A stretch of 64,000 nucleotides of DNA from Spirosoma taeanense (GTDB taxonomy: Bacteria; Bacteroidota; Bacteroidia; Cytophagales; Spirosomataceae), in assembly GCF_013127955.1 (NCBI RefSeq), contig NZ_CP053435.1:1426001-1490000 (forward strand). Reading direction: 5' to 3'. The first letter of the stretch is position 1; each line of letters begins with the position of its first letter. A program made the translations under genes and the position numbers. Below, one piece after another: positions 51,213 to 61,502 of the stretch. The notes under the pieces were generated by a model. It made no database searches and was not told where the DNA came from. It saw only the letters and a list, made by a program, of their open reading frames with translations.

Positions 51213-52646
51213 CTAGCTTTTGCTGGTATTGATGCTGGTTTCAGGATTGGTAATTTCTTCGGTAGTACGTCCTGCGGATATAAGTGAAGGCCTGTGCCGT
51301 TGGGTAGGCAGGGTAATTCGAAATGTAGTGCCTACACCTACTGCTGATTCGACCGCTATCTGCCCTTGATGCAGTTCAATAATACGGTGGGTCAGCGCCA
51401 GGCCAATCCCGTGGCCGTGAATGGTCATTGTATGTTGAGAACGATAGAAGGGGTCGAAAATATGTGACAGGTCATTGGCCGATATGCCATAACCCTGATC
51501 ACTGATAGTCAGATGGATACGGCTGCGCTCAAACGCAATACGCACCGATACCCGTTCATCGGAAGAATACTTGCAGCCGTTTTCCATCAGGTTCTGCAAA
51601 GCAGTCTGCAGGAGCGATTCATCACCAACGATCACTAAATCTTCTTCCTGATTGGGTAGGTTGTCAAAATCAATATCAATATGGTACTCCGGCTTTTTAA
51701 GCAGGAGCTGATCATGCGCCTGCCAGAGTAGTTCATCAACCCGTACCGGTTGGTAATGCAGAGTCGTTGCATCGGAGTTGGCCCGGGCCAGATCGAGGAG
51801 CCCATTGACGAGCCGGATCATATTTTTAACTTCATCCAGGAGGCTTTCCAGCGTGGCTTCATACTCGTCTGGCGATCGGGCCTGGAGCAGGGTTACTTCA
51901 ATCTGGCCCATCATCACCGTTAGGGGCGTCCGTAGCTCATGCGATGCATGGGACACAAAGCTTTTCTGGGCAACAAAAGCTTCTTCAAGTCGGCTGAGGA
52001 GGGCATTGAACGTTCGGGCCAGATCGGCAATTTCGTCGCGCTGACGCCCAACCCGCAGCCGTTCATGGATATTCGTAGCTGAGATCGCATTCGCCTGACC
52101 GATCAGTTCACTGACAGGACGTAACGCATCCGTTGCGAACAGGTATCCGGCGAGACCCACGATGACCAGGCACAGCAGCCAGCCAAAAAAGAGAATCTGA
52201 CGTAGGTGGTTAAGCTTGGTAAAACCGTATTGATCATTGCCGGACGCAACAATAATCAATACTTCTTTTCGGGCGTTGAGATAGCGAACGACGGCAGCTT
52301 CCAGGTTATCGATCCGAACGTACTGCGGCTGGCCCTCCTTTACACTACGGAGCAGGCCGGGCGAAATAGGAAATCGTGTTCGTTGATTGCCCTGCGTATA
52401 GAGCACATTACCCTGCTCATTATAAACCGTCACCTGCTGGGCGGTGATCGCCGGTAAGTCGCCCTGTGGAAATTCGCCTACGTCTTCGCGAAGCCGGACG
52501 GTCGTTGTCGCCTTTTCACGAAGTCGTTTAAAGAATTCCTGTTCCCGAAACTGGTTGTAGAGATAATACACCGACACTGAAAATAGCAGCAGAATCGAGG
52601 CTACCAGTAGCACGAAAAGCAGCGTCAGGCGGGTGCGAATGTTCAT
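51213..52646 (-). CDS. Sensor histidine kinase with HAMP domain
   Basis: The 477-residue membrane kinase has a first transmembrane segment at about residues 6-26, a periplasmic sensor region, a second segment ending near LVIVGLAGYLFA, and a HAMP linker. The H-box is SHASHELRTPL (phospho-acceptor His near residue 245), then an N-box with NLMENGCKYS and G-boxes SDQGYGIS and GHGIGLAL. It follows the response regulator gene by 71 nt, forming a two-component pair. The layout is CusS-like. The ATG at 52646 (MNIRTRLTLL) is preferred over a TTG at 52667. Confidence 0.92.
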   Translation of the reverse strand: MNIRTRLTLLFVLLVASILLLFSVSVYYLYNQFREQEFFKRLREKATTTVRLREDVGEFPQGDLPAITAQQVTVYNEQGNVLYTQGNQRTRFPISPGLLRSVKEGQPQYVRIDNLEAAVVRYLNARKEVLIIVASGNDQYGFTKLNHLRQILFFGWLLCLVIVGLAGYLFATDALRPVSELIGQANAISATNIHERLRVGRQRDEIADLARTFNALLSRLEEAFVAQKSFVSHASHELRTPLTVMMGQIEVTLLQARSPDEYEATLESLLDEVKNMIRLVNGLLDLARANSDATTLHYQPVRVDELLWQAHDQLLLKKPEYHIDIDFDNLPNQEEDLVIVGDESLLQTALQNLMENGCKYSSDERVSVRIAFERSRIHLTISDQGYGISANDLSHIFDPFYRSQHTMTIHGHGIGLALTHRIIELHQGQIAVESAVGVGTTFRITLPTQRHRPSLISAGRTTEEITNPETSINTSKS

Positions 52647-52717
52647 AACGGAAAAGGGCTGAGCCAATAGAAAGGCCGAGAGGAGTCATCGCCGGATTCA
52701 AAATTTCCTGGTTTCTA

Positions 52718-53395
52718 TTATTCATCTTTCAGCATATACCCCATTCCAATAACGGTGTGAATGAGTTTATGCGGGAAATCCTTATCAACTTTTTTACGGA
52801 GAAAGTTGACGTACACATCAATAACGTTGGTGCCTGTATCGAAGTGGATATCCCAGACTTTCTCGGCAATGTCAACCCGCGAGACGACGCGGCCCCGGTT
52901 GCGCATGAGATAATCAAGCAGACCAAATTCCTTGGCCGTAAGTTCAATCCGCTTATTACCCCGACGAGCTACTTTTTCATTCAGATCGAGTTCGAGGTCG
53001 GCTACCTTCAGAACGTTAGCCTGCATACCGGCTTCGCTGCTGCGCTTGGTCAGGGCCCGCAGCCGGGCCATCAGTTCCCGAAATTCAAATGGCTTAACCA
53101 GGTAATCGTCGGCACCCGATTCAAAGCCCGTTAGTTTATCATCGACCGATCCCATTGCTGTCAGCATCAGTACCGGCGTTCTGACGTTTTCGTCGCGTAG
53201 ATACTGAACGACGTCAAATCCGTTCATTTTCGGCAGATTTACGTCCATGACAATAACGTCATAGGGATTGCTGAGCGCCATGTTACGCCCTACCTGCCCA
53301 TCGTAGGCGACGTCTACCTCGCAGGATTGCTCCTCTAATCCTTTTTTGACGAACGACGCCAGTTTTGGCTCGTCCTCGACTACCAGAATCTTCAT
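52718..53395 (-). CDS. OmpR/PhoB-family response regulator
   Basis: The 225-residue regulator has a receiver domain with acidic pair EDE, phospho-acceptor Asp in VIVMDVNLP, the Thr in MLTAMG and the Lys in YLVKPF. A winged-helix DNA-binding domain follows (GLLDYLMRNRGRVVSRVDIAEKVW and VIDVYVNFLRKKVDK). The receiver resembles CusR-type metal regulators. It is probably transcribed with the kinase from a -7 TAAATTTG (53439-53446 on the minus strand). It is divergent from the membrane-protein pair at 53731, so it may control that pair. Confidence 0.92.
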   Translation of the reverse strand: MKILVVEDEPKLASFVKKGLEEQSCEVDVAYDGQVGRNMALSNPYDVIVMDVNLPKMNGFDVVQYLRDENVRTPVLMLTAMGSVDDKLTGFESGADDYLVKPFEFRELMARLRALTKRSSEAGMQANVLKVADLELDLNEKVARRGNKRIELTAKEFGLLDYLMRNRGRVVSRVDIAEKVWDIHFDTGTNVIDVYVNFLRKKVDKDFPHKLIHTVIGMGYMLKDE

Positions 53396-53730: not shown

Positions 53731-54942
53731 ATGATTGATTTTATTCCCTCGACGTTAGCTGCTGCTCGTTACCCCGCCAAAACCAGGTCAGTACCGATTG
53801 CGATCTACAGCATTGTGTTTGCCGCACTTTGCACCAGCTGGGGTATTCTCTGGGATATCATGTGGCATATCAGCATTGGGCGCGACGGTCTGTTTTCGGC
53901 ACCCCATGTTTTAATGTATATAGGAGCGATCGTTACGGGCGTGGTGTCAGGCTATCAGATTCTATCAATTACGTTCAATAAACACCATCCGGCCAGGGCC
54001 GTTTCCATTCGGTTCTGGGGTGTTTTTTACGGGTCTCTCGGGGCTATGTTCTGCGTCTGGGGCGCGCTGGCTATGTTAACGTCAGCGCCCTTTGACGACT
54101 GGTGGCACAGTGCCTATGGTTTAGACGTGGAAATTATCTCTCCTCCACACGCCCTGCTGGCCGTCGGATTTCTGATGTTGCAGTTTGGTTGTGTGGTGAG
54201 TGTACTGGCGTTGCAAAACCGGGCGACCGATCTTGCTGACAAACGTCCGATGAGCGGATCAGCTTCCTTTCAGATTAAACAGCTGTTTATTCTGTCCGCC
54301 GGTATACTGCTGGTGCAGTATTACACGCTATTTTACGAGAAACTGATCGAGATAAACTCACACCGATCCCAGTATTATATTCTTTCGGGGCTATTGTTTC
54401 CGGGTTTTCTGATGGCGATAGGGCGGTCTGCGCGACTGAATTATGCCATGACTGCCACCACCATTGCCTATCTGCTGGTGATGCTGATTCCGAGCTGGAT
54501 ATTGCAGTATGTACCGGCAACGCCAAAATTAGGTCCTGTTTTAAATCCCATCACGCATTATCAGCCATTTCACTTTCCATTGCTGCTAATTGGGCCGGCT
54601 TATGTGCTCGACCGGTTGTTCCAGCGGTACGGCCAACGTTTCAGTGACTGGCAGCTGGCGGGAATCGCAGCGGTTATCTTCATGACCGTGTTTCTGCTGG
54701 TTCAATGGCCATTCGGGGCCTTTCTGCATGAGTCTCCTTTGGCTCGCAATCATTTTTTTATGTCGTATTCCTGGCGATATAGCCTGCCGCCAGACTGGCC
54801 ATACCGGTATAAGTTTGACCCGGCGCATCAGGAGTCGGCGGGGCGGTTTGCACTGGGATTGGCTCTTGCGCTGCTGGGGGCTTTCGGCTCGGCCCGCGTC
54901 GGTCTCTGGATTGGGAACTGGATGAGGGAAATCAAGCGATGA
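53731..54942 (+). CDS. Polytopic membrane protein with duplicated D/W/H/G/D/PH motif, unknown function
   Basis: The 403-residue protein has about 9-10 hydrophobic segments and no recognised domain name. Two equivalent segments stand out: WDIMWHISIGRDGLFSAPH (residues 41-59) and FDDWWHSAYGLDVEIISPPH (121-140). In both, Asp, Trp-His, Gly, Asp and a terminal Pro-His recur with nearly equal spacing, which suggests an internal duplication and a metal- or heme-binding site near the membrane. The ATG at 53731 (MIDFIPSTL) is used; the frame opens at 53692. Its stop overlaps the start of the next gene by 4 nt (ATGA), so the two proteins are translationally coupled. Confidence 0.85.
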   Translation: MIDFIPSTLAAARYPAKTRSVPIAIYSIVFAALCTSWGILWDIMWHISIGRDGLFSAPHVLMYIGAIVTGVVSGYQILSITFNKHHPARAVSIRFWGVFYGSLGAMFCVWGALAMLTSAPFDDWWHSAYGLDVEIISPPHALLAVGFLMLQFGCVVSVLALQNRATDLADKRPMSGSASFQIKQLFILSAGILLVQYYTLFYEKLIEINSHRSQYYILSGLLFPGFLMAIGRSARLNYAMTATTIAYLLVMLIPSWILQYVPATPKLGPVLNPITHYQPFHFPLLLIGPAYVLDRLFQRYGQRFSDWQLAGIAAVIFMTVFLLVQWPFGAFLHESPLARNHFFMSYSWRYSLPPDWPYRYKFDPAHQESAGRFALGLALALLGAFGSARVGLWIGNWMREIKR

Positions 54943-56597
54943 GATACCAAAAGCCTACCGCAATTTGCCGCTATGCGGGCAGTATCCTTTTATTGCTGAT
55001 AAGTATTCTGTCGGCTCAGGCGCACGTTGGGAGCCCCGGCGTGATTGTGCAGAAACAGGCGGGTAATTATCAGGTCCTTGTCAGCATTAATCCACCCGAT
55101 GTGGTGCCGGGCACGGCCCGGGTTACGGTCTATGTTGAGCGGGGTCGGGTCGGAAATGTAGAGGCTCGGGCCGTTTATTTCAACGCCGGTGATGAGGCTT
55201 CTCCCTCGCCCGACAGGCTAATCGCTGCCGCCGGTCAGCCAAACAATTTGTCGGGGGATATCTGGTTGATGGACATTGGCTCGGCCAGTATCGAAATTTT
55301 TCTGAACGGACCTGATGGAAAAGCAAAGCTGATTGTGCCGGTAATGTCGGTAGCAACGGCTCAGCGTACGATGCCTGTCGGCACAGGGGCTCTGCTTGCG
55401 GGGCTGGGGGTACTGCTGGTGGTAATGCTGATTACAATTATTGGGGTTAGCGTAACGCAGGCAAAACTCAATCCGGGTCAGGCCATACCGGCTGCGTACC
55501 GGATTCGACAACGCCTGAGCATGGCTCTGACGGCTTTGGTGCTGCTGGGCATCCTAACGGCCGGCCGGTTCTGGTGGGAGAGCCGTGAAAAGCGGTATCA
55601 ATCTATAAACCTGTATCGGCAACTGGACGTAAACTCAACCGTAAAAACGGTTGGGGTGAAGCCGCAATTACTTATTGAGGTAGATACCGCCAGCCTGGCC
55701 CGTAACAACCGACCGCTCAGCTTTATCGTGCCCGATCACGGCAAACTGATGCATACGTTTCTGGTTCGGTTTCCGCAGTTAGACGCGTTCGCGCATCTGC
55801 ACCCGATTCGGCACGATACGCTACACTATCAGACGGCGCTGCCTCCTCTACCCCCCGGTCAGTACCGACTTTATACCGACGTAGTTTACCAGAACGGTTT
55901 TGCCGAAACGCTCACCGATACGGTAACTTTACGGGGCTCGGAACTCCAATCTTATATTGCCTCTGACCGTGACGACAGCTGGCTGGTTGACCCGAATACT
56001 ACTAAGCAGCCCTTACGGCTCGATGGCAGTATGGCGTCGTGCGGTAAGCCCGGTGCCTATGTGCGCCTGAGCGATGGCTCAACCATGATCTGGACGGATA
56101 AACCCACTGATGTTCTGGAAACGGATCAGCTGTATCAGCTTCAGTTTGCCGTAGCGGACGCGGAAGGTCGCCCTGCTCCGCTGGAACCCTATCTGGGCAT
56201 GAGCGGCCACGCGGCTCTAGTGCGTGAGGATGGGCAGGTTTACATGCATCTGCATCCGGTTGGCACGTATTCAATGGCTGCCGAAACTTCGCTGGTTCGT
56301 CGGATTGCGGATACCGCCCGGACCTATCAGTATCCGAATGCTCAGTTTTTTCGCGACAGCATTGACCGCGCTCTTAAGTCGCTCAACGATTTGACTGGTG
56401 ACGAATACAATCAGCGGCTGGGCGCGACCATGCCCGGTATGGTCCATGAAAAAGATGGCAACCGTCACCTGAACATGGTGGCTTTTCCCTATCAATTTCC
56501 GAGTGCGGGCCGCTACCGGATCTGGGTTCAGGTCAAGCGAAACGGTCGGGTCCTGACGGGTGCTTTTGAGACGCAGGTTCGCGCGGCCTGGCAATAG
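54939..56597 (+). CDS. Exported His-rich protein with a predicted N-terminal histidine (histidine-brace-like)
   Basis: The 552-residue protein has a signal peptide whose predicted cleavage (AQA at 26-28) leaves His29 as the mature N-terminus, followed by VGSPGV. A mature N-terminal histidine is how CopC, PmoB and LPMO proteins bind copper. After a beta-rich N-domain (30-140) come two transmembrane segments (about 148-171 and 194-210), then a periplasmic or outer domain. That domain has DHGKLMH (266-272), FAHLHP (284-289), GMSGHA (420-425) and YMHLHP (435-440). A possible recall is a family of AHVGSP-starting proteins in environmental bacteria with no assigned function. Copper handling is inferred, not shown. 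Confidence 0.8.
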   Translation: MRYQKPTAICRYAGSILLLLISILSAQAHVGSPGVIVQKQAGNYQVLVSINPPDVVPGTARVTVYVERGRVGNVEARAVYFNAGDEASPSPDRLIAAAGQPNNLSGDIWLMDIGSASIEIFLNGPDGKAKLIVPVMSVATAQRTMPVGTGALLAGLGVLLVVMLITIIGVSVTQAKLNPGQAIPAAYRIRQRLSMALTALVLLGILTAGRFWWESREKRYQSINLYRQLDVNSTVKTVGVKPQLLIEVDTASLARNNRPLSFIVPDHGKLMHTFLVRFPQLDAFAHLHPIRHDTLHYQTALPPLPPGQYRLYTDVVYQNGFAETLTDTVTLRGSELQSYIASDRDDSWLVDPNTTKQPLRLDGSMASCGKPGAYVRLSDGSTMIWTDKPTDVLETDQLYQLQFAVADAEGRPAPLEPYLGMSGHAALVREDGQVYMHLHPVGTYSMAAETSLVRRIADTARTYQYPNAQFFRDSIDRALKSLNDLTGDEYNQRLGATMPGMVHEKDGNRHLNMVAFPYQFPSAGRYRIWVQVKRNGRVLTGAFETQVRAAWQ

Positions 56598-56685: not shown

Positions 56686-57909
56686 ATGTTCACCATGCGT
56701 TCACGCACAATGGGTATGGCGGTTACCCTATTGTCCGCCTGTATATTAGGAAGTTGTCGGCCAGGAGCTGAATCCGTCAATACGAAACCTGACGAGCGTC
56801 TTGTGCCGGGAGAATACATTGTCGTCTACAAAGCTGATCCGCTGGCGGGCGCTAAATTCATTAATACCTACGACGGTCGCACGCAGAGTGTTCGGCAGTA
56901 CACGCGTAAACTGCTGACTACACTTAGCATTAAATCGGATCAGATTGATCAGGTGTATGGTACGGCAATCAAAGGGTTTTCGGCCCGGCTAACGAAGGCT
57001 GAAGCAGAGCAACTGCGCCAGAATCCGCAGATTGCTTATATTGAGCAGTCGCGTTATGTTAACCCAGACGAACCCCAACGCCTGGACGAGAGCAACGCTC
57101 GGGCCACGGCCGGCCAAGAAGTACCTTGGGGCATTAAATACGTAGGTGGGTTTGTTGATTATTCCGGTTCCAACGCTGCCTGGATTGTCGACACAGGAAT
57201 TGACCTGGATCATAAAGACCTGAACGTTGACGTGAAACGGGGAAAGAACTTCGTTACGTCGGGCCAAGGTGCCAAAACGCTGGATGATCAGCACGGTCAC
57301 GGCAGCCATATGGCGGGTATTATTGCCGCCCGCAATAACAGCATTGGTGTGGTTGGCGTAGCGGCTGGGGCACCGGTTGTTCCCGTGAAAGTGGGCTGGC
57401 GGTTTCAGGATATTACCACGGCTCTGGTGATTGCCGGTGTTGACTACGTAGCGGCCAATGCGAAATCAGGGGATGTGGTTAACCTCAGCGTTGGCGCTTA
57501 CGTAACGGAATCTATGGATGCGGCTGTGTTGAGCATGGCCCGGCGGGGAGATCTTTTCGTAGCAATCTCCGCGGGCAACGCCTACAACGGCAATTATGAT
57601 GCAAACAACATCTCGCCGGGCCGGATCAACGCTCCGAACGTATATACGCTATCAGCCTACGACGATAAAGGCATGTTTGCTAAAATATCCTGCGCGGGAA
57701 ATCCACCAATTGATTTTTCAACACCGGGTGTCCGGATTAAATCAACGGTTAACAATGGGGGGTATGCCACCTTTACGGAAGGGACATCAATGGCAACGGC
57801 TCATATGGCGGGCATTCTGCTGGCAAACGGCGGGGTTGTATACGCCAAAGGCTACGTAAAGGCCGACCGTGATGGTGTGCCCGATGCCATTGCTTCACGA
57901 ATTCCCTGA
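56686..57909 (+). CDS. S8 family serine peptidase, predicted lipoprotein
   Basis: This 407-residue subtilisin-like protease is attached to a membrane by a lipobox (LLSACILGSC, Cys near residue 24). It carries an I9-type inhibitor propeptide (GEYIVVYK to ARLTKAEAEQLRQNPQIAYIEQ). The catalytic triad is Asp in WIVDTGIDLDH, His in HGHGSHMAGI and Ser in GTSMATAHMAG. The oxyanion Asn lies in AISAGNAY. It starts 88 nt after the His-rich protein gene with no terminator between, so it may be co-transcribed, but no mechanistic link is seen. An in-frame ATG at 56695 is an alternative start. Confidence 0.9.
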   Translation: MFTMRSRTMGMAVTLLSACILGSCRPGAESVNTKPDERLVPGEYIVVYKADPLAGAKFINTYDGRTQSVRQYTRKLLTTLSIKSDQIDQVYGTAIKGFSARLTKAEAEQLRQNPQIAYIEQSRYVNPDEPQRLDESNARATAGQEVPWGIKYVGGFVDYSGSNAAWIVDTGIDLDHKDLNVDVKRGKNFVTSGQGAKTLDDQHGHGSHMAGIIAARNNSIGVVGVAAGAPVVPVKVGWRFQDITTALVIAGVDYVAANAKSGDVVNLSVGAYVTESMDAAVLSMARRGDLFVAISAGNAYNGNYDANNISPGRINAPNVYTLSAYDDKGMFAKISCAGNPPIDFSTPGVRIKSTVNNGGYATFTEGTSMATAHMAGILLANGGVVYAKGYVKADRDGVPDAIASRIP

Positions 57910-58230: not shown

Positions 58231-61200
58231 CTATAGTTCGCTAAACTTATGCCGGTAAAAAGCATAGAAAATCAGCGGAAAAATAAACAACGTAAGCAGG
58301 GTCGCGGTAATGAGCCCCCCGATAACGACAATAGCTAAGGGTTTAGCTGTTTCGGAACCAATGCCGTGGGAAATCGCTGCCGGAATCAGGCCGATCCCGG
58401 CCATCATGGCCGTCATTACCACTGGCCTTATACGGGATATAACCCCTTCGCGGATAGATTCGTTCAGCGTCAGCTTGTTATGCAGGTTCTTTTTAAAGAC
58501 CGAAATCAGAATCACCCCGTTCTGAATACAAATGCCAAAAAGAGCAATAAAGCCTATCCCGGCCGAAATGCTGAAGTTGACGTGCGCAATGAGCAAGGCT
58601 GCAATGCCCCCGATAATCGCAAACGGAACATTGAACAGGACCAGACCTGCGTCTTTTACGTTGCCGAACAGAATAAACAGGATAAAGAAAATGCCCAGCA
58701 GGCTGACCGGGACGACCTGCTCCAGCCGGAGGGTAGCCCGCTGCTGGTTTTCAAAATCCCCAGCCCACTTAAGGCTGTAGCCCGACGGTAAGTGCACGTG
58801 ACCGGCTACTTTTTGCTGCGCTTCGGCAACGGCGCTGCCCATGTCGCGCCCACGAACCGAGAACTTCACGGCCCCGTAACGCTGGCCGGCTTCGCGAAAA
58901 ATCAGAACCGGTCCCGTCTGGGTGTACACGCTGGCAATTTCTTTGATCGGAATCATCGAGCCGTTCTGAGTAGGCACCATCAACTGGCTAATCTGCTCTT
59001 CGTTGGAGCGGAAGGGTTGGTCATACCGAATACGCAGGTCGAATTTGCGCTCGCCTTCATAGATCTGTGTAGCCGCTTTGCCGCCGATGGCCATCTCAAT
59101 TACGGCTTCGGCATCGGCCTTGTCCACACCATACAGGGCTAATTTGCGTTCGTCGAGTTCTACCCGCATTTCGGGCTGGCCGGTCGTGCGGATAACCCCC
59201 AGGTCTTCAATCCCCTGAACCGTAGCCAGCTGTTTCTGAATCTCGCCCGCCTTGCCTTCCAGGATGCTCTGGTCTGGCCCGTAAATCTTTACGGCAATAG
59301 ATCCTTTGACGCCCGATACGGCCTCTTCAACGTTGTCCATGATGGGCTGCGAAAAGCCAAAATTAACCCCTGGAAAAACGCTTAGTTTCTGCTGCATCCG
59401 GTCAACCAGCTGCTCTTTGGTCAGGCCGCTTTTCCACTGATCCTGCGGATAGATGTCTACCAGGAACTCGATGTTGTAAAATCCCGTAGGATCGGTGCCG
59501 TCGTTCGGTCGGCCGGTCTGGGATATAACGCCCTTGACCTCGGGAAATTCATCGAAAATGTGGCGCATCTGTATCGTCTGCTTTACCGACTCGGGCAGCG
59601 AAATGCTCATTGGCATAGTGGCCCGGACGTAAATCGAGCCTTCATTCAATTCGGGCAGGAACTCCGTACCCAACAACTTAAAGCCCGACACGCCAATCAC
59701 GACCAGGGCGGCCGTAACGAGCAAACTCATTTTCTTGTGCGCGAACGTATAGCCAAAGGCGCGCGTGGCCTGCTTCGTTACCAGGTTAACGAACGGATTA
59801 TGCTTTTCGCGAACATTCTTCTTTAACAGAATGCTGGCCAGGACCGGCACCAGCGTCAATGTAAAGATGAGCGCGCCCAGCAGGGCAAACCCAAGGGTCC
59901 AGGCCAGCGGTGAAAACATTTTGCCTTCCACCTTCTGGAACGAAAAGATGGGGATCAGGCAGGTGATGATGATGAGTTTGGAGAAGAATATGGCCTTTCC
60001 CATTTCGGTGCCGGTCTTACGCAGAATTCCCAGCTTGGCCAGCTTATTAAACCGGCTCATGCCCTGCTCATGAGCCAGCTCATCGAGCGTCACGAAGATA
60101 CCCTCCACCATCACTACGGCGCCATCAACGATGATTCCAAAATCGATTGCCCCCATGGACAGCAGATTGGCCGACATGCCTTTCAGGCGCAGACAGATAA
60201 AAGCAAACAGCAACGCCAGGGGAATAACAATAGATACCGTAACGGTAGTCCGCCAGTCGGCCATGAACAAAAAGACAATGACCGTCACGAACACAATGCC
60301 TTCGATCAGATTGTGCGTTACGGTATGCGTGGCGAAATGAATGAGGGTTTCGCGATTATAGAACGTATTGATCTGTACGTCGCTGGGCAGGATGCTTGTA
60401 TTCAACTCATTGATCTTGTCTTTTACCCGCTCAATGACCTCGCTGGGGTTTTCGCCTTTCCGCATCACCACAATACACTCCACAACGTCGTCGCGTTTGT
60501 CGCGACCCGCCTGTCCAAGGCGGGGCAGAGCCGATTCAGAGACCTGCGCCACGTTGCGCACCATAATTGGCGTGCCGTTCACGTTTTTGATGATGATATT
60601 CTGAATGTCCTGCTGATTACGGAGCAGGCCGATACCGCGCACAACGTAAGCCTCCGAGTTTTTCTCGATTACATCGCCCCCTACGTTGACGTTCGCGTTA
60701 GCGACCGCCCGATACAATTGCAGGGGCGTGATAGAGTAGTCCATCAGTCGGCGCGGGTCAACTGATATTGCGTAGGTTTTCACCTCACCGCCAAAGCTAA
60801 CCACGTCGGCTACGCCCGGCACACTTTTCAACTGGCGCTCGATGACCCAATCCTGCAGGGTTTTCAGTTCGCGGGCGTTGCGCGTCGGCGACTGGAGCGT
60901 ATACCGAAAAATCTCGCCCGTTGGCCCGTAGGGCGGCTGCACATCCGGTTTTACGTTTTCGGGCAGGTCTACGTTCCCCAGCAGATTGTTGACCTGCTGG
61001 CGGGCGAAGGCATCGTCGACCCCGTCTTCAAACAGAACCTTTACGACCGACAGCCCGAAAAGTGAGGTTGAGCGGATATCAGTTCGCTTCTGAACCGAGT
61101 TCAGCCCAATTTCAATGGGAATCGTTACGAACTTTTCAATCTCTTCCGCCGACCGGCCGGGCCACTGCGTAATAAGCGTGATCTGAGTATTTGTAACATC

Positions 61201-61329
61201 CGGAAACGCTTCAATGGGTGTATTCTGGTAACTGATAATCCCGGCGACAACCGCCAGCGCAGTTAGAAAAAAGATAAAAAATGTATTCTTCAGCGAGAAC
61301 GTAAGGATACCCTTAATAAACTTATTCAT
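58231..61329 (-). CDS. Heavy-metal efflux RND transporter, CusA/CzcA family
   Basis: This 1032-residue inner-membrane proton antiporter exports metals through a tripartite pump. It begins MNKFIKGILTFSLKNTFF. The first periplasmic loop includes NTPIEAFPDVTNTQ. The HME-RND signature MGAIDFGIIVDGAVVMVE lies near residue 391, with its conserved Asp residues. The barrel ends in LFIFPLIFYAFYRHKF, without the C-terminal TolC-like fusion some CzcA proteins have. The ATG at 61329 is preferred; another ATG at 61347 exists. The membrane-fusion protein and outer-membrane factor usually beside it are absent, so the pump must borrow partners. Metal specificity is unknown. Confidence 0.93.
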   Translation of the reverse strand: MNKFIKGILTFSLKNTFFIFFLTALAVVAGIISYQNTPIEAFPDVTNTQITLITQWPGRSAEEIEKFVTIPIEIGLNSVQKRTDIRSTSLFGLSVVKVLFEDGVDDAFARQQVNNLLGNVDLPENVKPDVQPPYGPTGEIFRYTLQSPTRNARELKTLQDWVIERQLKSVPGVADVVSFGGEVKTYAISVDPRRLMDYSITPLQLYRAVANANVNVGGDVIEKNSEAYVVRGIGLLRNQQDIQNIIIKNVNGTPIMVRNVAQVSESALPRLGQAGRDKRDDVVECIVVMRKGENPSEVIERVKDKINELNTSILPSDVQINTFYNRETLIHFATHTVTHNLIEGIVFVTVIVFLFMADWRTTVTVSIVIPLALLFAFICLRLKGMSANLLSMGAIDFGIIVDGAVVMVEGIFVTLDELAHEQGMSRFNKLAKLGILRKTGTEMGKAIFFSKLIIITCLIPIFSFQKVEGKMFSPLAWTLGFALLGALIFTLTLVPVLASILLKKNVREKHNPFVNLVTKQATRAFGYTFAHKKMSLLVTAALVVIGVSGFKLLGTEFLPELNEGSIYVRATMPMSISLPESVKQTIQMRHIFDEFPEVKGVISQTGRPNDGTDPTGFYNIEFLVDIYPQDQWKSGLTKEQLVDRMQQKLSVFPGVNFGFSQPIMDNVEEAVSGVKGSIAVKIYGPDQSILEGKAGEIQKQLATVQGIEDLGVIRTTGQPEMRVELDERKLALYGVDKADAEAVIEMAIGGKAATQIYEGERKFDLRIRYDQPFRSNEEQISQLMVPTQNGSMIPIKEIASVYTQTGPVLIFREAGQRYGAVKFSVRGRDMGSAVAEAQQKVAGHVHLPSGYSLKWAGDFENQQRATLRLEQVVPVSLLGIFFILFILFGNVKDAGLVLFNVPFAIIGGIAALLIAHVNFSISAGIGFIALFGICIQNGVILISVFKKNLHNKLTLNESIREGVISRIRPVVMTAMMAGIGLIPAAISHGIGSETAKPLAIVVIGGLITATLLTLFIFPLIFYAFYRHKFSEL

Positions 61330-61502
61330 GAGCAAACGACAAGGCATGTGCTGTTGTCGGCTATAAAAGTGAGGGCGGAGGTTTAAATCAGGTTTAAAGC
61401 GCGGTTAAAAGAAAGTTAAATTGATTAGCCAGCTTTGAAATAAGCCCGTTTGCCGGGAGATTAGCTGACAAACAAAAGGGTTATAAATTGATTTTACAGT
61501 GT

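Follow-up and report, generated by a model that had tools for sequence, protein, structure and literature searches.

A gene pair of Spirosoma and its relatives as a candidate copper-handling membrane system with a remote likeness to PmoC

What is the role of a pair of overlapping genes, one encoding a polytopic membrane protein with a duplicated aspartate/histidine motif and the other an exported protein predicted to begin, once processed, with a histidine? The pair, here called P1 and P2, lies in a 64,000-nucleotide stretch of Spirosoma taeanense DNA ("the window," positions 1426001-1490000 of contig NZ_CP053435.1, from a genome of 5.72 Mb; the named relatives of the family include Spirosoma, Dyadobacter, Larkinella, and Runella). 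An earlier note, made from the sequence of the window, proposed that the two proteins form a membrane complex that binds or uses copper or another metal. The reading favored here, at a probability of about one half, is that P1 and P2 form a copper-handling membrane complex in which P1 and the PmoC part of the copper membrane monooxygenases have a common origin. Part of the earlier proposal stands, as the two genes travel together, the N-terminal histidine is kept, and the first P1 motif matches PmoC, but its argument from adjacent regulation and resistance-nodulation-division (RND) efflux does not. Both open reading frames were recovered on the forward strand with the 4-nucleotide overlap reported earlier (Table 1).

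The association between the two genes is close. A scan of GTDB species genomes found 373 relatives, and the counts given below per 80 loci refer to the best 80 of them, selected with peptide patterns covering part of the first P1 motif (site 1) and Asp122. In 76 of the 80 the gene after P1 is P2, which supports the co-occurrence that the earlier note proposed to check by genome neighborhood. In three of the exceptions (L064, L065, and L078) the contig ends soon after P1, and in the fourth (L095:9407-10870) P1 has no P2, the next gene encoding an unrelated-looking protein of 487 residues. Tandem pairs of P1 genes occur as well, at L015/L020 (G011:C1:314153-316766), where one P2 follows, at G451:C42:10551-13017, and in L065. 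Of 29 genomes, 18 have P1, each with P2 beside it; all 18 belong to the window's genus, its own genome being one of them. P2 is found in 19 of the 29, the extra one (G009) matching residues 423-548 only; this remnant (L039, G009:C11:681236-681604) carries three in-frame stops in the one genome of the genus that lacks P1, so that P1 and P2 were probably lost from it jointly. In wider samples, P1 occurs in 124 of 200 genomes from the family (114 of the 167 good ones; 21 of 36 genera) and in 5 of 395 from the phylum.

Comparison with known families gives the pair no name. Neither window protein has a meaningful match in Pfam, NCBIfam, or the PDB sequences, PDB-sequence searches with four queries (P0001, P0002, A4, and A5) gave nothing meaningful, and 38 P2 relatives and 40 P1 relatives produced scattered weak Pfam matches that differ between members. 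The Pfam models AmoC (PF04896) and Monooxygenase_B (PF04744) match neither window protein, and whole-genome searches of the window's genome for the same two families found no match, one of these searches being blank in control genomes too and so telling little by itself. Searches of open-licence full text gave nothing on the P1-P2 pair or on such PmoC relatives in Bacteroidota among the papers listed.

The clue to P1 comes instead from its duplicated motif. Both copies described in the earlier note are present, although its spacers are off by one in places; their exact forms are D42-x2-W-H46-x3-G-R-D52-x5-P-H59 (site 1) and D122-x2-W-H126-x3-G-x-D132-x6-P-H140 (site 2). They constitute a true internal repeat (46 columns, E 3e-11 in an hhalign comparison of sub-alignments). 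All six Asp/His site positions are invariant in 20 same-genus sequences found by similarity, and they are kept in 81 of 81 P1 open reading frames from the 80 wider loci, where conservation is partly by construction because the patterns used to choose these loci include part of site 1 and Asp122. Across 17 sequences, 11 from Bacteroidota and six from actinobacteria, the invariant columns are W41, D42, H46, G50, R51, D52, H59, P120, D122, W125, H126, G130, D132, P138, H140, E203, P265, and P364.

In the passages of PMC12576850 that deal with the copper sites, the PmoC ligands are given as D156/H160/H173 for CuC and N227/H231/H245 for CuD, and the CuC set is given likewise in the corresponding passage of PMC7674155. 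D42/H46/H59 and D122/H126/H140 of P1 share the spacing of CuC (D-x3-H-x12-H) and CuD (x3, x13), respectively, with the difference that site 2 has Asp where CuD has Asn. The comparison set gathered for PmoC/AmoC includes 7 of the 10 plasmid records found, together with two phage-contig proteins that belong to Pfam AmoC (E 5.1e-107 and 4.4e-123). In nine of nine aligned AmoC proteins the CuC region has the invariant pattern D-x2-W-H-x4-R-D-T-x-F-T-x2-H, and the window P1 reads D-x2-W-H-x4-R-D-x2-F-x3-H at site 1. Sub-alignments of site 1 and the AmoC CuC region align over 25 columns with E 4.8e-7 and a score of 35.9, against a null of 10.0 +/- 1.9 in which 0 of 60 shuffles were as good.

In hhalign comparisons of longer profiles, 40 P1 relatives align with nine AmoC proteins over 102 columns (E 9e-4, probability 23%) with both sites in register in one pass, and a further P1 profile does likewise (E 3.5e-4). 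A 46-sequence P1 profile, to which the six actinobacterial relatives were added, scores 37.4 (probability 31%) against 19 AmoC proteins; 200 column shuffles gave 14.8 +/- 2.8 with a maximum of 25.7, none as high, and the reversed profile gave 12.7. The same profile scores 19.2 against AmoA, which is decoy level, and 17.5 against AmoB. Profiles built from Bacteroidota or actinobacteria alone reach 33.4 and 35.9 with AmoC. The best scores among 37 natural decoy families, which are gene families beside the loci and were not selected as membrane proteins, were 20.5, 25.6, and 24.7 for the 46-sequence, Bacteroidota-only, and actinobacteria-only profiles, respectively. Three undirected searches also lead toward the ammonia monooxygenase (AMO), none of them significant alone. 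A 17-sequence P1 profile has AmoC of 9cl6 as its top match among all PDB sequences (E 0.038, over the CuC site); for two of the six actinobacterial relatives the leading Pfam match is AmoC (E 0.044 and 0.094, below the cut-off); and in a Foldseek search with the P1 model the top match was a chain of the same AMO structure, 9cl6_B (probability 1.00, E 0.046, TM-score 0.53 on the target, root-mean-square deviation 7.7; next match, probability 0.28).

The structure model of P1 (mean predicted local distance difference test score, pLDDT, 87.7) has ten long helices. In 40 sequences, the mean number of Lys plus Arg is 3.1 in loop 83-102, 3.5 in 166-182, 2.2 in 232-240, 2.2 in 299-307, and 2.5 at the C terminus, whereas the four intervening loops have 1.0, 0.0, 1.3, and 1.1. 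The positive-inside rule would therefore place both site loops on the periplasmic side, together with the domains of P2. For the 35-residue loop 335-369 (2.8 basic and 2.8 acidic residues) and the N terminus (1.1 basic), the side is ambiguous.

For P2, the signal-peptide-like start ending in A-Q-A before His29 is as previously described, and a histidine directly follows such a start in 76 of 76 P2 homologues beside P1. P2 is, however, no free exported protein, as two long helices (147-174 and 185-224) appear in its model. The model (pLDDT 82.8 overall, under 50 for residues 24-31) runs from the signal helix through a beta domain (35-137) and the two helices to more beta parts. Nine residues are invariant in 38 of 38 sequences: H29, H267, H272, H286, H288, C368, H424, H437, and H439. 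The histidine clusters noted earlier are found at 284-289 and 435-440, as FAHLHP and YMHLHP, the form HAHLHP being absent, and both H-x-H motifs thus sit in the C-terminal part. One P2 relative has a weak YtkA match (E 0.16, below the cut-off).

This layout invites comparison with PmoB/AmoB (PF04744), which P2 resembles in having a signal peptide followed by His, a beta domain, two helices, a soluble C terminus, and an HxHP motif. The copper-site passages of PMC12576850 give the CuB ligands of PmoB as His33 (N-terminal), H137, and H139. In four aligned AmoB sequences A-H follows the signal peptide, and the H-x-H-P motif, which is HLHP in L158, belongs to the first domain. P2 differs in its greater length, in having no sequence link to PmoB/AmoB, and in carrying its HLHP motifs C-terminally. 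Put to the test of a CuB-type subunit B, it keeps the N-terminal His (76 of 76) without an H-x-H in the first domain. That domain has no histidine besides His29, so that a classic histidine brace of the kind cited in the earlier note is not supported.

A second point of comparison is CopC-CopD, in which an exported partner whose mature form begins with His is paired with a polytopic membrane protein. P2, predicted to be exported and His-first, and the polytopic P1 correspond to this arrangement, and copC stands beside one P1 relative, but the window proteins match neither Pfam CopC nor CopD; CopD is matched by one of 40 P1 relatives (E 0.026), and CopC is not among the 24 Pfam families listed for 38 P2 relatives. 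A weak likeness of one fused actinobacterial protein to FixH/YtkA-like proteins (FixH E 0.01, YtkA E 0.049) is below the cut-off and not established.

Distant relatives of both P1 and P2 have copper or heavy-metal genes around them at some of the loci read. A tblastn search of plasmids with P1 returned seven actinobacterial records, and one more, a Mycolicibacterium chubuense NBB4 plasmid, was reached via a relative so found; seven loci were read, with one near-identical Streptomyces record left out. In four of the seven, the surroundings of the P1 relative include copper or heavy-metal genes: CopC and a heme-copper oxidase subunit in L243; a multicopper oxidase and a cupredoxin in L244; a four-helix copper protein, heavy-metal P-type ATPases, and a metal-sensitive regulator in L245; and a cupredoxin, a heavy-metal-associated protein, and a P-type ATPase in L247. 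The C-terminal part of P2 has relatives on seven plasmid records; of six such loci read, three (L249, L250, and L251) have copper or heavy-metal genes, one (L254) has an ArsR-type regulator, and two are unannotated. At L249:3740-4732 the annotation of the relative is that of a protein with a heavy-metal-associated domain, and a gene for a heavy-metal P-type ATPase comes immediately after it.

Regular expressions find both P1 motifs in five of the six actinobacterial proteins read; in the sixth, P0005, site 2 is found in this way and site 1 has a two-residue insertion. The same five end in a hydrophobic stretch followed by A-x-AHDPGQG, then a domain and finally another hydrophobic stretch, as though a domain of the P2 kind, with His first, had been joined to P1. 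The fusion reading rests on position because the similarity of this domain to P2 is no better than that of other pairs compared: the P2 first domain and the actinobacterial C-terminal domain align over 76 columns with E 0.0064 and a score of 22.7, other pairs score 22.6 and 23.2, and the match was not counted. P0005, the sole one of the six without the A-x-A-H domain start, is the protein that adjoins copC. Apart from the two best matches to AmoC, Pfam returned for the six one match to Acyl_transf_3 (E 3.4e-5, below the cut-off), the one to FixH, and nothing for the other two. The Rubrobacter relative (L242:5900-7022) spans two reading frames, of which the annotated coding sequence covers only the later part, and therefore looks frame-shifted. 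One Mycolicibacterium plasmid, NC_018022.1 (L159, L248), carries a full copper monooxygenase operon and a P1-type fusion gene together.

In the complex proposed, P1 would bear two tandem metal sites, one CuC-like and the other probably CuD-like, on loops expected to be periplasmic. P2, held by its two helices, would present both its N-terminal His and its His-rich C-terminal part to that same side; it may pass copper to or from P1. The most likely job would be the capture, holding, or delivery of copper, as in CopC-CopD, rather than growth on a gas. Two observations put copper handling first: the copper and heavy-metal gene clusters, and the position next to copC of P0005, which lacks the His-first start.

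A number of results weigh against this reading. The significant signal between P1 and AmoC is confined to 25 columns, and full-profile hhalign probabilities are low, at 23-38%. Site 2 matches the CuD region at chance level (E 0.16, 22 of 60 shuffles as good), so that it is the order and spacing of the sites that carry this correspondence. Among 200 block shuffles, one scored higher than the real profile, an artefact of 15 columns at a profile end. Searches of PDB sequences and Pfam with Bacteroidota P1 members alone missed AmoC (among 25 of 45 Pfam families listed). The Foldseek match is to AmoA rather than AmoC, with no other chain of AMO or of the particulate methane monooxygenase among the best 50 of 243 matches, and a search of a viral structure library with the P1 model gave no PmoC among the best 50. 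For P2, profile comparison with AmoB detected nothing, and Foldseek matches were to generic multi-domain beta proteins (query TM-score <=0.20), with no PmoB among the best 50. No copper gene family is a conserved neighbor in the 80 Bacteroidota loci. Among the actinobacterial loci, L246 and L248 offer hints only (a BlaI/MecI/CopY regulator and others), and the Rubrobacter locus, one of the seven read, has no metal gene.

The main rival to copper handling is a functioning copper membrane oxygenase or oxidase, in which P1 would activate O2 at its CuC/CuD-like sites and oxidize a small or lipid substrate, with P2 as a PmoB-like partner and no PmoA. The site-1 ligands, along with R51 and D52, are unchanged in all 17 sequences and match residues invariant in nine of nine AmoC proteins, which would suit such an enzyme, as would the single-pass register of both sites and the PmoB-like layout of P2. 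It is nonetheless less likely, as no third conserved gene lies beside the pair, site 2 has Asp for the Asn of PmoC in a match that is not significant, no substrate pathway is seen, and the copper and heavy-metal clusters around several actinobacterial relatives fit copper handling better. Somewhat less plausible again is that P1 is an unrelated membrane metalloprotein, for copper, zinc, or another metal, whose tandem D-x3-H...H hairpins resemble CuC by convergence: the brevity of the significant match, the lack of a family model above cut-off, the different subunit in the Foldseek match, and the weakness of site 2 would all allow it, but two sites occur in the same order with the same spacings of 12 and 13, the shuffles, reversed profile, and natural decoys all fall below the real score save for the one artefact, and the Bacteroidota and actinobacterial sets each give an AmoC signal.

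P1 and P2 are not classed here as a copper membrane monooxygenase, because several defining features looked for were absent; among them, no PmoA/xmoA gene that would complete a three-gene C-A-B set is conserved beside the pair in the 80 loci. A tentative possibility is that they represent an unseen branch of that superfamily, working from two genes, or from a single chain that is cleaved to free the first His, and without PmoA. If so, the branch would be widespread in a single Bacteroidota family and would also be carried by actinobacterial plasmids, and the tandem repeat of P1 would show the CuC and CuD sites of PmoC arising by duplication in a copper-handling ancestor. Between the two site regions of present-day AmoC no similarity is detectable (12 of 60 shuffles as good), which counts against such an origin.

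The mechanism and origin of the methane and ammonia monooxygenases are disputed, and their purification is hard. A distant relative bearing a CuC-type site in culturable bacteria would offer an outgroup for tracing their evolution and a simpler protein in which to address copper-site questions. In addition, a copper function open to testing would be assigned to a protein family that has no label in the databases searched and that occurs in 124 of the 200 genomes drawn from one bacterial family.

Table 1. Positions of the P1-P2 pair and its features in the window
Feature	Window position	Strand	Description
P1	53731..54942	+	Polytopic membrane protein, 403 residues, candidate remote PmoC/AmoC relative; longer than PmoC/AmoC (PF04896), with a plain internal repeat
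P1 site 1, W41-D42...H46...R51-D52...H59	53851..53907	+	Register and spacing of the PmoC CuC site
P1 site 2, D122...H126...D132...H140	54094..54150	+	PmoC CuD spacing; similarity alone not significant
P2	54939..56597	+	Predicted membrane-anchored exported protein, 552 residues, PmoB-like layout
P2 signal peptide, residues 1-28, A-Q-A end	54939..55022	+	From sequence; helix 8-24 in model
P2 His29, predicted mature first residue	55023..55025	+	Invariant in 76/76 and 38/38 homologues
P2 two long helices (147-174, 185-224) between beta domains	55377..55610	+	From model
P2 first HLHP motif (286-289)	55794..55805	+	Both His invariant
P2 second HLHP motif (437-440)	56247..56258	+	Both His invariant

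The surroundings of the pair vary from locus to locus. After P2, the next commonest neighbor is found in 31 of the 80 loci and begins like an NlpC/P60-type protein; the frequent neighbors look like lineage synteny. In the window, the pair is flanked by a CopR/CopS-like two-component pair (51213-53395; 264.7 and 221.1 bits, under the NCBIfam cut-offs of 279.2 and 292.55) and by an RND pump of the CusA/CzcA family (58231-61347; 949 bits, cut-off 701). These are the genes on which the earlier note leaned, and they do not flank P1-P2 in the other loci: CzcA occurs in 0 of 80, so that the metal-neighbor part of that argument fails, and the regulator and kinase have weak generic matches in three loci each. 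The window's metal neighbors were rejected as evidence; none of its listed genes besides P1 and P2 matches any of the 80 loci at >35% identity. Directly downstream of P2, at 56686-57909, lies a subtilase (S8) with an inhibitor I9 propeptide; it has a weak match in one of the 80 loci. A second P1-P2 copy in the same genome, at C1:405740-408651, has neighbors in common with as many as 17 of the 80 loci, and the copy in the window, which has them in common with none, is therefore taken to be one that was moved or acquired.

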